DNA of 64,000 nt from the NCBI GenBank assembly GCA_015075635.1, contig JABTUA010000001.1, forward strand, positions 1-64,000, written 5' to 3'. The translations under genes were made by a program, and so were the position numbers. The DNA is from Polyangiaceae bacterium (GTDB lineage Bacteria; Myxococcota_A; Polyangia; Polyangiales; Polyangiaceae). The notes under the pieces are model-generated. The model did not search any database, had not been told where the DNA came from, and saw only the letters and a list, made by a program, of their open reading frames with translations. Position 1 is the first letter of the stretch. Every line of letters starts with the position of its first letter. Below are positions 23,792 through 30,609 of this stretch, in pieces.

Positions 23792-24214
23792 GTGAAGCGC
23801 TGGGCTCGTCGGGCTCTCGCGTCGATCCTCCTGGGTGCGGTGGCGTGCAGCGGTGGCGGCGGTGGGGGCGACGACGCGACGCCGCTCGAGTGCTCGAACG
23901 AGTGCCCGGAGGGCTCGCGTCGCACGTCGTACGACAAAGTCGTCGCCGGCGACGCGGCGGTCGTCGTCTCCTCGGAGTGCGAGACCGCGTGCGAGCCCAT
24001 TCTGCCCTGCACCTACCCCAACCTGCCGTTGATCAAGGACGACGGCAGCGGGAAGGTCGAGTACAGCTGCGAGCCGCTCGAAGGCTACACGAACATCCCC
24101 AAAGACAACGAGGTCGACTTCAGCTGGGCGGCGGCCGCCCACTGCACGGACGGCGCAATGAACGACGACGAGACGGGGATCGACTGCGGAGGTGCGCTGT
24201 GCGCGCCCTGCTGA
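23792..24214 (+). CDS. Small Cys-rich lipoprotein, likely paralogue of the upstream gene
   Basis: About 140 residues from GTG 23792 (VKRWARRALASILLGAVACS). A TTG at 23774 is an alternative. The lipobox Gly-Ala-Val-Ala-Cys is followed by a Gly run, then LECSNECPEGSRRTSYDKVV, SECETACEPILPCTYPNLPL and a C-terminal CTDGAMNDDETGIDCGG. That last motif (D-x-x-x-N-D-x-E-T-G-I-D-C-G-G) is the repeat-like signature found at the end of many myxobacterial secreted proteins. It is 5 bp after the previous gene and overlaps the next by 16 bp, so all three are probably one operon. Confidence 0.65.
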   Translation: MKRWARRALASILLGAVACSGGGGGGDDATPLECSNECPEGSRRTSYDKVVAGDAAVVVSSECETACEPILPCTYPNLPLIKDDGSGKVEYSCEPLEGYTNIPKDNEVDFSWAAAAHCTDGAMNDDETGIDCGGALCAPC

Positions 24215-25227
24215 GCCAGCTCCGCCTGGTGTTGCCGATGTTGATGGCGGCCGCGCTCGCGAACACGGGCTGCAAGGGCGAAGAGGAGGCCACCAGCGGC
24301 ACCAAGCTCGAGGTCGAGTGCATCGGCATGTCGATGCGCCACCCGCTGGGCGGGTACTTCATGCTGGAGTCGGACTACGGCGGGCGCTGCCAGCTTTTGG
24401 TCTCGGACACGGTGTACGACCCCCAGAACGTGCAACTGCTCGAGCAGAGCGGCGCGAACTGGGGCAACGCCAACACCGCCGCGCTGGTCATCAACTTCGC
24501 CAAGAAGACCTGGGTCTCCCGCGGGGGCAGCATCTCGTTCAGCCAGTGGGAGCCCGGCTCGGCCACCGGCACCTACGACCTGGTTGGTGTCGAGTCCTCT
24601 ACCGGCGAGGAGGTGAAGCTCAGCGGACCCATCAGCTTCTGTGACTACGTCGCGAACGCGGATTGTCCGTACCAGACCTCGGGTCTGAACGCGCTCGACA
24701 AGCGGCTGAGCTTCATGGGGCCTGACGGCTTCGCGGCCAACGCGACGAATTCGCGCGCGAACGAGTGCCGCGTGCTGATCGACAAGAAGACGTCGGCCGT
24801 GCGCGTCGACGTCCAGCTCGCGATCCTGAACGGCGTGAACATCGCCCGCTTCCGCGACCGCTGTGGTCCCGCGGTGCCGCCCTCCGCCGGCTTCGTCTTC
24901 ATGGCGCCCAACGTGAGCGGACCCGGCAGCTACGGGCCGTTGACGTCTAAGCCCATCGCGCAGGTCGGTGACGGCCCGGCGTACCTCCCCGACTTCCACC
25001 TGACAGCCCCCACCGTGTACTGGCTGGGCAACTGCGCGAGCTCGCCGGAACGTCTGATGGACGTGCATCCGATCGCCGGCACTTCGTGCACCTTCAGCAT
25101 CGCGGACAATCCCGGCAAATTCGAGCTCGCGTGCACCGGCGCGGAGCACTCCGAGACGGGCCACTTCTACGTCAAGCAGGGCACCTTCGAGCTCTCCTCG
25201 GACTGCGACGTGCGCTACGTGGAGTGA
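24199..25227 (+). CDS. Lipoprotein of unknown function
   Basis: A 342-residue protein from GTG 24199, overlapping the upstream stop by 16 bp. The signal (LRLVLPMLMAAALANTGCKG) ends in a lipobox. The mature region is beta-rich with about ten Cys residues (LEVECIGMSMRHPLGGYFML, RCQLLVSDTVYDPQNVQLLE, SFCDYVANADCPYQ, CRVLIDKKTSAVRVDVQLAI, SCTFSIADNPGKFELACTG). It ends TFELSSDCDVRYVE. No domain recognised. The reading frame shows strong myxobacterial codon bias and looks intact. Confidence 0.65.
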   Translation: MRALLSQLRLVLPMLMAAALANTGCKGEEEATSGTKLEVECIGMSMRHPLGGYFMLESDYGGRCQLLVSDTVYDPQNVQLLEQSGANWGNANTAALVINFAKKTWVSRGGSISFSQWEPGSATGTYDLVGVESSTGEEVKLSGPISFCDYVANADCPYQTSGLNALDKRLSFMGPDGFAANATNSRANECRVLIDKKTSAVRVDVQLAILNGVNIARFRDRCGPAVPPSAGFVFMAPNVSGPGSYGPLTSKPIAQVGDGPAYLPDFHLTAPTVYWLGNCASSPERLMDVHPIAGTSCTFSIADNPGKFELACTGAEHSETGHFYVKQGTFELSSDCDVRYVE

Positions 25228-25298: not shown

Positions 25299-28175
25299 TC
25301 AGAGGGCTGCGCGACGCCGCGCGCCGAGCAACGCCAGCGCAGCGAGGGCCAAGTGCGCCGGCAGCGAGCGCGGCGCGCTCTCGCCCGGCATGGAGCAGCT
25401 GCAGCCCGCTTCGACGTCCTCGGCGCTCGAGCCGGGCTTGCCGCCGCTGCTCGGCGAAGCCCCTGGCTTTCCGCCGCTGCTGCCACCGCCGGCGCCGCCG
25501 GTCCAGCCGGAGCCCGAGCCTCCCGCGCCCGAGCCCCCGGAGCCGCCGCTCGGAGCGGGCGCGGGCGTCTCGCCGCACTGCGCCCCGGCGGCGGTGTCGG
25601 TGCAGGGCTCGCCGGCGGGGCAGTCCTCCGCGGAGAGGCCGCCGGCGTCGGTGCAGTGACCGAGCTGCCCGTTCGGCAGACACACGTCATGCGCCTTGCC
25701 AGGTGCGTCGTCGCAGAACAGGCTGGCGCAGCGCGCGCCCTTCGCGTCGTCCACGCATTTGGCCGCGTAGATCGAGCAGTCTCCCGCGGAGATGGCGCCG
25801 TCGTTGCAGTCGCCGATCAGCTTGTCGTCCAGGCACACCTTCTTCTGACCGAGGGCCGGGCAGAAGACGCTGACGCAGCGCGCGCCCTTGGCGTCGTCCA
25901 CGCACTTCGCGCCGTACGCCGAGCAGTCGCCGGACGAGATCGCGCCGTCGTTGCAGTCGCCGATCAGCTTGTCGTTGATGCACACCTTCTTCTGTCCCTG
26001 CGCCGGGCAGAACACGCTGGCGCAGCGCACGCCCTTGGCGTCGTCCACGCAGGTGGCGCCGTAGGCGGCGCAGTCGCCCTTGCCGCAGTCCGCGCCGACG
26101 ATCTTGCTGCCGTCGCAGTGCGGCTTGCAGCTGCCGCAGGGCCCGCCGCCGGGCCCACCGCCCCACCACTCCCAGTGCCAGTTCTCGCTGGGCACGGTGC
26201 GCTTGAAGCCGTAGGCACCGGCGTGCGCCTCGAGCCAGGCGTACACGCCCGCGCTCGAGGTGTTCAGGTCCAGCGCATGCCCACTCTGGTGGTTGCTGTA
26301 GCCGGGCTTGGCGGCCAGGTTGCAGTTGTTGCAGTTGCAGTTGACGTAGCAGCCGTAGAAGTACTGCTGCTCCGCCATGGTGCGGAAGCCGCTGACGATC
26401 TTCAGGTTCACGCCCGCCGCCGCCGCCGCCTGCGCCATCACGTAGTAGGCGTTCGCCGTGGCCTTCTCGACGGGCTTGCCGTCCACGGTCACGACGGTGA
26501 TCGGGAAGGGGCTGCCGCTCGAGTAGCCGGTGTCGCCGTGCTCGCCGCAGTCGATGCTGGAGAGGGCCTCGGCGCTCTGGGCCAGCGTCGGCGCCTCGCA
26601 CTGCTCTTCGTCGGCATCGCCGCCCTCCGGGTTTCCCGCCGAGCAGCCCGCGGCGCCGAGCAACAGGACTGCGAGCGCGGCGAGCCGGGCCTGCTTGCGA
26701 CGGACCGCGGCACAGGCACCGAGCACCAGCAGCACCAGCGCCGGCATCGCTCCGCGCCCAGGTCCGCCCACCGAGCAGCCGGAGTCGTCGGCGACCACCC
26801 CCGCGTCGGGGCTGATCGGGCTGGGCGCTGCGCCTCCCGCACCGCTCGCGCCACCCGAGGTCGGCGCGCTGCCGCCCGTGCCCCCGCTCGACGTCGTGGG
26901 CGGCGTCTCGCCACACTGCGCCCCGGCGGCCGTGTCGGTGCAGGGCTCGTCGGCCGGGCAGTCCTCCGCGGAGAGGCCGCCGGCGTCGGTGCAGTGCCCG
27001 AGCTGCCCGTTGGGCAGGCACACGTCGTGCGCCTTGCCGGGTGCGCCGTCGCAGAACAAGCTGGCGCAGCGCGCGCCCTTCGCGTCGTCCACGCATTTGG
27101 CCGCGTAGACCGAGCAGTCTCCCGTGGAGATCCCGCCGTCGTCGCAGTCGCCGATGATCTTGTCGTCGATGCACACCTTCTTCTGGCCCTGCGCCGGGCA
27201 GAACACGCTGACGCAGCGCGCGCCCTTGGCGTCGTCCACGCACTTCGCGCCGTACACCGAGCAGTCACCGGACGAGATCGCGCCGTCGTTGCAGTCGCCG
27301 ATGAGCTTGTCGTCGATGCACACCTTCTTCTGGCCCTGTGCCGGGCAGAACACGCTGGCGCAGCGCACGCCCTTCGAATCGTCCACGCAGGTCGCGCCGT
27401 AGGCAGCGCAGTCGCCCTTGCCGCAGTCGGCGCCGACGATGGTGCTGCCTTCGCAGTGCGCCTTGCAGCTCTGCACGCAGGGACCCGATGCCTTCAGCAC
27501 TTGGATGTCGCTGCCGTAGTAGAAGCGCAGGATGTCCATGTGGCCCCAGCCCTTGCTCTCCAGGCAGCGCGCGCCCCACTGACCCATACAGCCGCGGTTC
27601 TGACCGAAGCCGGGCGGGCCGATGTAGCCGAGCGAGGTCTGCTTCACGGCGCCGCCGGTCTTGCCCCAGTTGTAGGTGACGTACTTCTCGGTGCTGCCGC
27701 TCGAGCCGACGCAGCCCGAGCCACCGGTGTTGGTGTCGCCCGCGACGTAGAAGCCGTAGGTGAGCGCGCCGGCGAAGGAGAGGTACATACCCGCCGTCTC
27801 CTTCACGGCTTGGAAGTGCTTGGCCTGAGGTGCGGCTCCGCAGGAGTAGACCTGGCAACCCTGCCCGTCGCAGATCGAGCCCTGGGTCGCGATGTTGTAG
27901 TAGGCGACGGAGCGCGCCGCGATCGCCTGCGCCTTCAGCGCTTCCAAGCTGGCGCCGCCGTTCTCGCAGGTGATGACGTGGGGCAGGTAGTCGTCCTCGA
28001 GTGCCTTGACGCCCTTGCCGATGACGTTGATCTGGCAGTGAGCGCTCGGGAGCGGCGCCGACACCACCGCCTGCTCGACCTCGCCCAGCTCTTCGCCCGC
28101 TTCGGGCGGCGCGCCGCACGCGGTCAGCAGGGAGAGCAGGATTCCGAGCAGGCCCAGCCACGCCAGAGGTCGCAT
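25299..28175 (-). CDS. Double-decker lipoprotein: SpoIID-like domain, Cys repeats, MYXO-CTERM, second lipobox, M15/VanY peptidase, Cys repeats, MYXO-CTERM
   Basis: A 958-residue protein in one frame. Order: lipobox C20; SpoIID/LytB-like domain (about 50-225, LKAQAIAARSVAYYN and GWGHMDILRFYYG); Cys repeats (240-425, ACGKGDCAAYGATC type); a MYXO-CTERM-like segment (C467, hydrophobic 478-490, VRRK). With no linker comes a second signal-like segment with lipobox C511. Then a peptidase M15/VanY-like domain (540-672) with SNHQSGHALDLN and ENWHWEWW zinc ligands, the same Cys repeats again, and a final CTERM (GCSCSMPGE, ALAALALLGARRR). SpoIID and VanY domains act on peptidoglycan. It looks like two neighbouring genes fused in frame. 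I used the ATG at 28175 with an AGGA site. Confidence 0.75.
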   Translation of the reverse strand: MRPLAWLGLLGILLSLLTACGAPPEAGEELGEVEQAVVSAPLPSAHCQINVIGKGVKALEDDYLPHVITCENGGASLEALKAQAIAARSVAYYNIATQGSICDGQGCQVYSCGAAPQAKHFQAVKETAGMYLSFAGALTYGFYVAGDTNTGGSGCVGSSGSTEKYVTYNWGKTGGAVKQTSLGYIGPPGFGQNRGCMGQWGARCLESKGWGHMDILRFYYGSDIQVLKASGPCVQSCKAHCEGSTIVGADCGKGDCAAYGATCVDDSKGVRCASVFCPAQGQKKVCIDDKLIGDCNDGAISSGDCSVYGAKCVDDAKGARCVSVFCPAQGQKKVCIDDKIIGDCDDGGISTGDCSVYAAKCVDDAKGARCASLFCDGAPGKAHDVCLPNGQLGHCTDAGGLSAEDCPADEPCTDTAAGAQCGETPPTTSSGGTGGSAPTSGGASGAGGAAPSPISPDAGVVADDSGCSVGGPGRGAMPALVLLVLGACAAVRRKQARLAALAVLLLGAAGCSAGNPEGGDADEEQCEAPTLAQSAEALSSIDCGEHGDTGYSSGSPFPITVVTVDGKPVEKATANAYYVMAQAAAAAGVNLKIVSGFRTMAEQQYFYGCYVNCNCNNCNLAAKPGYSNHQSGHALDLNTSSAGVYAWLEAHAGAYGFKRTVPSENWHWEWWGGGPGGGPCGSCKPHCDGSKIVGADCGKGDCAAYGATCVDDAKGVRCASVFCPAQGQKKVCINDKLIGDCNDGAISSGDCSAYGAKCVDDAKGARCVSVFCPALGQKKVCLDDKLIGDCNDGAISAGDCSIYAAKCVDDAKGARCASLFCDDAPGKAHDVCLPNGQLGHCTDAGGLSAEDCPAGEPCTDTAAGAQCGETPAPAPSGGSGGSGAGGSGSGWTGGAGGGSSGGKPGASPSSGGKPGSSAEDVEAGCSCSMPGESAPRSLPAHLALAALALLGARRRAAL

Positions 28176-28338: not shown

Positions 28339-28872
28339 ATGCACCCCCGCCTCCTGACTCCGCGCATCCTTTGGGGCGCGCTCCTCGCGTCCACGGTCCT
28401 GTTCCTGGTGGTGCTGTTCGTGCAGCCCCACCCGCCCTCGATTGCGACGCCGATCCTGGCGCCAGCGCTCGGCGCAGTGGCGATCGGGCTCGCCATCTTC
28501 AGCTTCGTGCTGCCGATGCAACAACAGCGGACCGTGCTCCAGCAGGCCAAGGTCGAGATCACCGAGGCCCCCGACCCGAACGCGTCCGGAGTCATCCCTT
28601 ACCGTGACGCCCCCAAGCGACGGGTGTTCGCCGACCCGAAGGCCGCCGAGAACACCGCCTTCGTCAACTACCAGACGTCCCTGATCCTCGGCTGCGCGCT
28701 CTCGGAGGCGATCGCGATCTTCGGCTTCATGCTCGGCTTCCTGGGGCACCCCCCCGTGGTGTTCTTGCCGTTCTTCGTGGCCTCCTGGGTGCTCATCGGG
28801 GTGCGCTTTCCGACGCTGGCCCGCGTGCGCGGGCCGCTCGAGAAGGCGAAGGGCGCGGTCTTCCCCGACTGA
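28339..28872 (+). CDS. Four-TM membrane protein of unknown function
   Basis: A 177-residue protein with hydrophobic segments near residues 10-28 (ILWGALLASTVLFLVVLFV), 38-58 (TPILAPALGAVAIGLAIFSF), 112-134 (SLILGCALSEAIAIFGFMLG) and 138-156 (VVFLPFFVASWVLIGV). The middle loop is Lys/Asp-rich. Helix three has the C-A-L-S-E-A-x-A-x-x-G-F pattern seen in subunit c-like and related small membrane proteins, but nothing specific is assigned. It starts 163 bp upstream of, and divergent from, the SpoIID/M15 gene. Confidence 0.6.
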   Translation: MHPRLLTPRILWGALLASTVLFLVVLFVQPHPPSIATPILAPALGAVAIGLAIFSFVLPMQQQRTVLQQAKVEITEAPDPNASGVIPYRDAPKRRVFADPKAAENTAFVNYQTSLILGCALSEAIAIFGFMLGFLGHPPVVFLPFFVASWVLIGVRFPTLARVRGPLEKAKGAVFPD

Positions 28873-28893: not shown

Positions 28894-30609
28894 ATGGAGG
28901 CGGGCTCGAGCGGAAGGTCGTTCGGCAGCCTGCCTCCCCCAGGGGGCGGCAAGGAAGAGCTGCGCGCCACGCTGTTGCGGCCGTATTTCTTGAGGCTGCG
29001 CGCGGAGCGAGGCGAGTCGGCGTGCCGCAGCCTGGTCGCAACGCTCGGCCTCACCGAGCACGTCCTCGACGACGATTCGGCCTGGCTGTCGGTGGGCGCA
29101 GCCACGCGCGCGCTCTCCGCGCTCGGCACCGCGTTGGGCGAGAGCGCCATCGCTCAGCGAGGCGAGTGGGCCACCCACCCCGAGGCGCTGGGCGCCTACG
29201 TGCGCATGCTCCGCGTCGCGTCGTCGTTGCCCGACGCATACCAGTACCTGTGCGCTCACTCGAGCGAGAGCACTCGCGTCGGCAGCTACACGCTCGATAG
29301 GGCTTCCCGCTCCCAGGTCTCGATCACCTACCGCCCGCGCGAGGAGAGCGGCGACGAGGAGCGCGACCCGCTCTTGTGCACTCTGCGCCGTTCCGAGCTC
29401 GGAGCGCTGCCGCGGCTCTGGGGACAGGCGGACGCCAGCGTGGCCGACGTGGCCTGCCTCGCCCGCGGCGAGGCGAGTTGCAGCTACGTCGTGAGCTGGA
29501 AGCCCGTCGCGCGCCGCCGCGCCGTGCCCATCGCCGCCGGCCTGGGCGCGCTCGCCTGCGCCGGTGGGGTGGCGTTCTCCGGGAGCGCCTTGGCCTCCGG
29601 CATCGCCGGCTCGCTCGGAGGCGTGCTCGGAGCGGCGGTGGGGTTCTTGCAGAACCGCGTCGCCAAGGAGCGCGCCGCGCGGGTGCTCGAGAAGCACCGC
29701 ATCGCCGCGCTGGAGCGCGGGCTCGAGCTGAAGGGCGCCATCGGCAGCATTCCCGGCGACCTGGTCGGCGTGGTGCTGGGCGGCAAGTATCGCATCCGCC
29801 AGCGCATCGCCGCCGGCGGCATCGGCACCGTCTACTCCGCGGAGCACGTCACGCTGGGCTCACACGTCGCGATCAAGGTGCTGCGCGGCGCCGCTGCCGA
29901 AGACGCCGCGGAGGTCGCGCGCCTCCGCCGCGAGGCGCGGGTGCAGGTCTTCGTCGAGCACCCCAACATCGTCCAGGTCCTCGACCTGGACCAGATGCCC
30001 GACGGGTCCATCTACGTGGTGATGGAGCTCTTGCAGGGCATGACGCTGGCCCGCAGGGTCAAGACCGTGGGCCCCCTCGCACCCGAAGAGGCCGTCGAGG
30101 TGTTCAGCCAGGTTTGTCGCGCGCTCGACGCCGCTCACACCTTCGGCATCGTCCACCGCGACATGAAGCCAGGGAACATCTTCCTGTGCGACGACGGCAC
30201 GGTGAAGGTGCTCGATTTCGGCATGAGCAAGCTCGCCCAGGCCGAGTCGATCACCCAGCAGGGCTTCACACTGGGTACGCCAGAGTACATGTCGCCAGAG
30301 CAGTGCATCGGGGCGGAGCTCGACGGTCGCGCGGACCTGTACTCCGTCGGTGTGGTGATGTACGAGGCGCTGACCGGCAGCTTGCCTTTCAACGTGTCGA
30401 AGCGCCGCGCGCTGCTCGAGCTCCACCAGCGCGAGCACCCCGCGCCCCTGCGGGCCCGTCGCCCCGACCTGGGTCTGCCCGAGCGCCTCGATCAGGCGGT
30501 GCTCGCCTGCCTGGAAAAGCGCCCGGCGGACCGACCCGCGAGCGCCCGCGAGCTGGAGCGCCGACTGCAAGCCGCGCTCGGCGCCGTGCGCGCGCGCGCA
30601 AAGCCGTAG
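28894..30609 (+). CDS. Ser/Thr protein kinase with an N-terminal V4R-like sensor domain and TM segment
   Basis: A 571-residue protein. Residues 25-203 are a sensor-like domain ending CLARGEASCSYVVSWK, which resembles the C-terminal strand of 4VR/V4R small-molecule binding domains. A hydrophobic stretch (about 210-250) is a TM segment or hairpin. The kinase (299-560) has a variant glycine loop IAAGGIGTVY, VAIKVL lysine, HRDMKPGN catalytic loop, DFGMSK and TPEYMSPEQC activation segment. The fold is active-type, though the Met in HRDM replaces the usual Leu. It sits between the four-TM gene and a LysM gene. Input signal unknown. Confidence 0.88.
   Translation: MEAGSSGRSFGSLPPPGGGKEELRATLLRPYFLRLRAERGESACRSLVATLGLTEHVLDDDSAWLSVGAATRALSALGTALGESAIAQRGEWATHPEALGAYVRMLRVASSLPDAYQYLCAHSSESTRVGSYTLDRASRSQVSITYRPREESGDEERDPLLCTLRRSELGALPRLWGQADASVADVACLARGEASCSYVVSWKPVARRRAVPIAAGLGALACAGGVAFSGSALASGIAGSLGGVLGAAVGFLQNRVAKERAARVLEKHRIAALERGLELKGAIGSIPGDLVGVVLGGKYRIRQRIAAGGIGTVYSAEHVTLGSHVAIKVLRGAAAEDAAEVARLRREARVQVFVEHPNIVQVLDLDQMPDGSIYVVMELLQGMTLARRVKTVGPLAPEEAVEVFSQVCRALDAAHTFGIVHRDMKPGNIFLCDDGTVKVLDFGMSKLAQAESITQQGFTLGTPEYMSPEQCIGAELDGRADLYSVGVVMYEALTGSLPFNVSKRRALLELHQREHPAPLRARRPDLGLPERLDQAVLACLEKRPADRPASARELERRLQAALGAVRARAKP

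Follow-up and report, generated by a model that had tools for sequence, protein, structure and literature searches.

A predicted envelope polyprotein in a Polyangiaceae bacterium: two wall enzymes joined through an internal MYXO-CTERM tag and a second lipoprotein signal

C-terminal sorting tags are defined and annotated as the ends of proteins. In the MYXO-CTERM/myxosortase system (TIGR03901, NF040593, NF040594) the tag is tripartite: myxosortase cuts MYXO-CTERM proteins, the Cys of the tag is required, and its Arg-rich tail is cytoplasmic (PMC11980579). An internal MYXO-CTERM has been described in MXAN_5598 of Myxococcus xanthus, read by its authors as a possible two-gene fusion whose N-terminal part is processed and anchored; they compare it with the overlapping traA/traB ORFs, call such ORFs rare, and regard sorting tags as able to work from within a protein (PMC11980579). 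The locus analyzed here shares the internal tag with MXAN_5598, whose downstream part is, in contrast, an outer-membrane barrel with OmpA domains, no second lipobox or enzyme pair having been described for it. With the MYXO-CTERM/myxosortase system it shares the tripartite tag and an encoded MrtC, but it departs from that system by having the tag inside the chain, with another export signal coming after it. Its second signal has the basic n-region, hydrophobic core and AAGC lipobox of substrates of the lipoprotein pathway (Lgt, LspA), although this signal, too, lies within the chain and takes the cytoplasmic tail of the preceding tag as its n-region. Finally, both enzymatic domains, including the catalytic residues that were checked, resemble the LdcB/VanY M15 carboxypeptidases (4d0y, 4ox5) and SpoIID (5i1t), from which they differ in being fused through a sorting tag and in each carrying a Cys-rich tail.

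The window (the whole 64,000-nucleotide stretch of DNA that was analyzed) contains a single ORF of 958 codons plus stop on the minus strand (25299..28175; ATG at 28175, stop at 25299-25301), which encodes, in this order, a lipobox at C20, a SpoIID domain, a Cys-rich tail, a linker, a MYXO-CTERM, a second lipobox at C511, a VanY/M15 domain, a second tail, a linker and a terminal MYXO-CTERM, all features given below lying on the same strand. The likely flanking genes (about 23845-25227 and 28339-28872) are on the plus strand, so that the fused ORF appears to stand alone on its strand. A kinase gene at 28894-30609 could not be used as a synteny marker, kinases giving about 150 matches per genome.

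The first half starts with a signal peptide recognizable in the sequence, ending in the lipobox LTAC (C20; 28116..28175), followed by a SpoIID domain (residues 61-133 in Pfam PF08486; 27777..27995; 45 bits versus a cut-off of 23), with family similarity extending to about residue 231. The conserved Glu preceding the ALKAQ block is Glu71, and its counterpart in the alignment is the Glu of the solved SpoIID structure 5i1t. The first half is a divergent relative of SpoIID/LytB and not a full member of TIGR02669, against whose model it scores 65.8 bits, below the cut-off of 83.3. The second half contains a VanY/M15 peptidase domain (residues 569-672 in Pfam; 26160..26471; 58 bits versus a cut-off of 25) in which the M15 zinc-ligand motifs (SxHxxGxAxD and E-x-W-H) are present, with H629, D636, E664 and H667. 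Each domain is followed by a Cys-rich tail (residues 232-423, 26907..27482; residues 680-869, 25569..26138). These tails are 92% identical in protein and align locally over 618 columns of DNA at 91%, third positions accounting for 30 of the 49 substitutions; the Cys-rich tail has no Pfam match, and its AlphaFold model (pLDDT 75, pTM 0.45) gave no fold match at E <0.001.

Two matches to TIGR03901 are found in the protein, both above the cut-off of 20: the terminal MYXO-CTERM (C925; 25311..25412) reaches 30.8 bits, and the internal copy (G466-C467 to VRRK494; 26694..26780), separated from the first Cys-rich tail by a Gly/Ser-rich linker, barely clears it with 20.9 bits. The first-pass annotation had described one 958-codon frame in which a SpoIID-like half, a CTERM, a second lipobox and a VanY/M15 peptidase follow each other, with the same Cys-rich block and tag on both halves; the ORF itself, the Pfam and TIGR03901 matches and the identity of the tails all confirm this description.

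The internal tag comprises C467 (position 26777), hydrophobic residues 477-491 and the basic cluster V491-R-R-K494, after which come QAR and then directly LAALAVLLLGAAGC, with the lipobox at C511 (position 26645). The second export signal, RRKQAR-LAALAVLLLGAAG-C511 (26643..26702; read from the sequence), thus shares residues with the tag, and the "zero linker" previously proposed between the two elements is rather a short one, RRKQAR. With its basic n-region RRKQAR, uncharged core and small-residue-Cys lipobox (AAGC), it meets the criteria of a lipoprotein signal with the exception of N-terminal position, being internal and without a start codon. The internal MYXO-CTERM fails the complementary criterion of C-terminal position, with 465 residues after the match; for this reason its reading as an ordinary terminal tag was rejected, and only the claim that it works like one was kept.

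The interpretation that we favor, with fair though far from full confidence, is that the fused gene encodes an envelope polyprotein, i.e., a membrane hairpin that is cut by myxosortase and signal peptidase II to give the two enzymes in a 1:1 ratio. Export of the first half would depend on its own lipoprotein signal. Transfer would then be halted by the helix of the internal MYXO-CTERM, so that the Arg/Lys loop stays on the cytoplasmic side, until the next hydrophobic stretch, acting as a new signal sequence, restarts export with the M15 half; a two-helix hairpin in the inner membrane would result. The positive loop suits the positive-inside rule for both hairpin helices. Myxosortase (MrtC here) would cut at C467, and Lgt and LspA would modify and cut at C511, so that one cistron would yield a SpoIID-like and an M15 enzyme, both of them anchored; the terminal CTERM would also be processed by myxosortase. 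This machinery is encoded in the bacterium's own genome, where MrtC scores 307 bits (cut-off 195) and genes for LspA and Lgt are present. Topology, both cuts, lipidation and enzyme activities are all inferred, no data on cleavage, lipidation or localisation being at hand, and the AlphaFold model of the junction (pLDDT 38) was of no use. A protein cut into two lipid-anchored enzymes, as already put forward in the first-pass annotation, is the best-supported mechanism, although the cleavage itself has not been observed. Four Lgt-like matches occur in the same genome (C3:705202, C1:300104, C1:2896197 and C1:3311593), one of them over the cut-off and one close to lspA; the unidentified MYXO-CTERM acyltransferase could be sought among the extra copies.

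The composition of the ORF speaks for one continuous chain. GC3 is 0.87-1.0 in every 60-codon block, junction included, there is no stop in frame across the junction, and both halves share one frame; moreover, no in-frame ATG, GTG or TTG follows the basic cluster before the second hydrophobic core begins. A single substitution of CAG495 to TAG would close the first gene, but the peptidase would then have no usable start codon, the sole candidate, TTG505, falling within the hydrophobic core. With one frame, uniform GC3 and no usable start after a restored stop, a base or sequencing error at the junction is unlikely from the sequence itself, and hardly any weight can be given to sequencing or assembly having joined two genes: this exact gene comes from one assembly only, yet the same architecture is found in many independent assemblies. 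The absence of a start codon from the loop, together with the uniform GC3, also implies that the second enzyme is producible only as part of the fusion, inasmuch as gene starts are predicted. It is very improbable that internal initiation produces the M15 half as a lipoprotein of its own, whether in addition to the fusion or instead of it. A GTG or TTG does occur just ahead of the basic cluster at several other junctions (see below), whereas none is present at the window junction, at one of the two junctions of a three-unit chain in genome G024, or at a MopE-type junction; and since no stop precedes any junction, the long chain must be produced in any case.

The internal tag of the window is not isolated within its own genome (G000). 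Of 105 MYXO-CTERM matches followed downstream to the stop codon, 82 ended within 10 residues of it and nine had at least 40 further codons, three of the latter being excluded by inspection (one in the wrong frame, one with a stop inside the match, and one continuing for only 44 residues). The six real internal CTERMs (C1:26697, in the window; C3:999117; C1:2829345; C3:2009878; C3:2022354; C2:2874864) continue for 182-713 residues, and in each of them a basic loop leads to a hydrophobic stretch with a lipobox-like Cys at its end. As lipobox-like N-termini occur in 16-25% of genes under a very permissive rule (a background drawn from stretches around CTERM genes, not from a random sample), six out of six would not be expected by chance (0.25^6 = 2e-4 at worst; 1e-8 to 1e-6 with an assumed 5-10%). 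Three fused ORFs of this genome (L211 1660-5205, L197 2396-5407 and L197 14116-17499) are of unknown content, DUF2330 and MopE/FG-GAP type, with a lipoprotein-like part after each joint.

A junction profile, applied to 108 genomes from the family and 184 from the order and followed by a local re-scan of stretches, revealed further wall enzymes chained in relatives, most of the compared and supporting genomes being metagenome assemblies. VanY/Amidase_2 chains joined in this way are present in four genomes (G000 C3, G001, G002 and G022; domains were scanned in G000 and called by similarity in the other three). SpoIID/VanY occurs again, with thrombospondin-3 repeats, in an uncultured Myxococcales assembly (G064 C372, L122), whose contig C137 (L275 1895-7426) encodes three units, SpoIID/Amidase_2/VanY, in 1844 aa with S-layer-homology repeats. 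The chain in G024 likewise has three units (unit/M23/SpoIID), and a GH25/peptidase C39 chain is found in G035. Units of one locus tend to share the kind of tail, which is 87-96% identical in G064 C137—as if copied or converted within the locus—44-57% in G000 C3 and 56% in L122. Myxosortase scores above cut-off in all 12 tested genomes with such fused ORFs. An M15 gene in G039 (L040) was not counted as fused, its upstream part being cut by the contig end, and a SpoIID protein with later M15/extensin-type domains (L057) was left out, no CTERM-lipobox joint having been found in it.

No conserved orthologue of the exact SpoIID/M15 fusion was found in these comparisons, the order with this Cys-rich tail being seen only in the bacterium's own genome. 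Homologue comparison of the first half shows that its nearest relative (64% over residues 18-495) is a single gene with a CTERM and then a stop (G022, L039), and in G000 C3 the ATG of a SpoIID gene overlaps by one base with the stop codon ending the VanY/amidase chain. Both observations support the earlier proposal that two ancestral neighbors were fused: the fusion may have originated from neighboring co-directional genes, like the one-base-overlapping pairs seen elsewhere. Loss of a stop and start, which had been listed beside that proposal, is a possible route to the fusion, CAG495 being one step from TAG, rather than a rival to it. The same three facts, i.e., the codon one step from a stop, the separate gene for the first half and the missing orthologue, can also be read as a neutral accident, in which a stop between overlapping genes was lost and the product was tolerated because its membrane segments fit, without any benefit of fusion. 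This is improbable, given six such ORFs within one genome and repeated fusions among peptidoglycan enzymes, and such tolerance would itself presuppose a working hairpin or cut.

A further point against an accident comes from a family of about 1400 aa unrelated to the window fusion, represented in the same genome by a protein of 1447 residues (L198 2682-7022, i.e., G000 C1:2826681-2831021) with no Pfam match and of unknown function. L198 relatives were identified in 148 of the 241 genomes of the class, usually as one ORF, and all 42 distinct fused ORFs, which were drawn from several families of the class, have a CTERM that is followed by a basic loop and then by a second hydrophobic stretch leading up to a Cys. 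The loop carries a net charge of +4 to +11 in 42/42, and Gly precedes the second Cys in 41/42. The second Cys signal is mostly GCxC. The Cys-to-Cys distance takes 22 values between 44 and 92 residues, and parsimony on a tree built without the linker requires at least 28 linker-length changes, all of whole codons, each of which would keep the frame with a chance of about one third if the frame were indifferent. These changes, through which a class-wide family has kept its frame, indicate that the fused frame is under selection, if only because the second half cannot be made otherwise. The combination of an internal tag with an adjoining second signal, initially considered very unusual, is recurring in this lineage and deeply conserved in one family.

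In rare relatives the same L198 pair is encoded by two overlapping genes, in G027 C25 (L328; 1 base) and G010 C367 (L329; GTGA, four bases), which suggests that the separate products work. Fused and split forms thus both seem to give working products, which fits what cutting at the joint predicts. Processing by signal peptidase II is less sure in this family, as position -3 of its second signal is mostly occupied by F, A, S or W instead of L/V/I. Four further loci (L330, L331, L332 and L337) contain only the first half, ending in a terminal CTERM.

Whether the hairpin is cut at all is the point at which the preferred polyprotein reading meets its most serious alternative. The hairpin might never be cut, or be cut on one side only, the enzymes remaining tethered together on a two-helix anchor in the inner membrane. 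Topology would permit this, fusion is ancient in the L198 family, and the surface-sorting defect of a myxosortase mutant is not absolute, its authors offering uncleaved export as one explanation (PMC11980579). However, both processing Cys residues and their small neighbors are kept, which a plain hairpin would not need, split versions exist, and tail and CTERM are repeated on each half. We consider such an uncut anchor unlikely, without dismissing it.

A literature search for internal tags or bacterial envelope polyproteins, which missed most subscription papers, returned MXAN_5598 only, and within the same limit no earlier report was found of the second-lipobox pairing, of serial wall enzymes, of the six-of-six rule or of the conserved family. 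The internal MYXO-CTERM is therefore already known once, while the joint of CTERM and restart signal counts as a new variant and is widespread. Its recurrence in many relatives suggests one long chain that is threaded through the membrane and cut into anchored enzymes. The broader proposal, that a stop-transfer tag plus a restart signal forms a general joint by which envelope polyproteins are built in this class, providing lipid-anchored wall enzymes in fixed ratio, stands evenly poised between acceptance and doubt. If true, the chain would cross the inner membrane repeatedly, with up to three wall enzymes per ORF, and two unrelated intramembrane peptidases, each meeting its site in the opposite topology to the other, would cut at neighboring Cys sites.

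The SpoIID-like and M15 enzymes may together trim glycan strands and stem peptides, either of the own wall or of prey, a joint role that is an inference. Tags annotated as protein ends would serve here as internal joints to a second export signal, and the fusion is a naturally occurring case in which joint action of myxosortase and signal peptidase II on a single chain can be examined, together with the order of lipidation and cutting, left open by the myxosortase authors, and the means by which bacteria fix the proportions of their wall-cutting enzymes. In this class, some genes now read as encoding a single large surface protein probably encode two or three.
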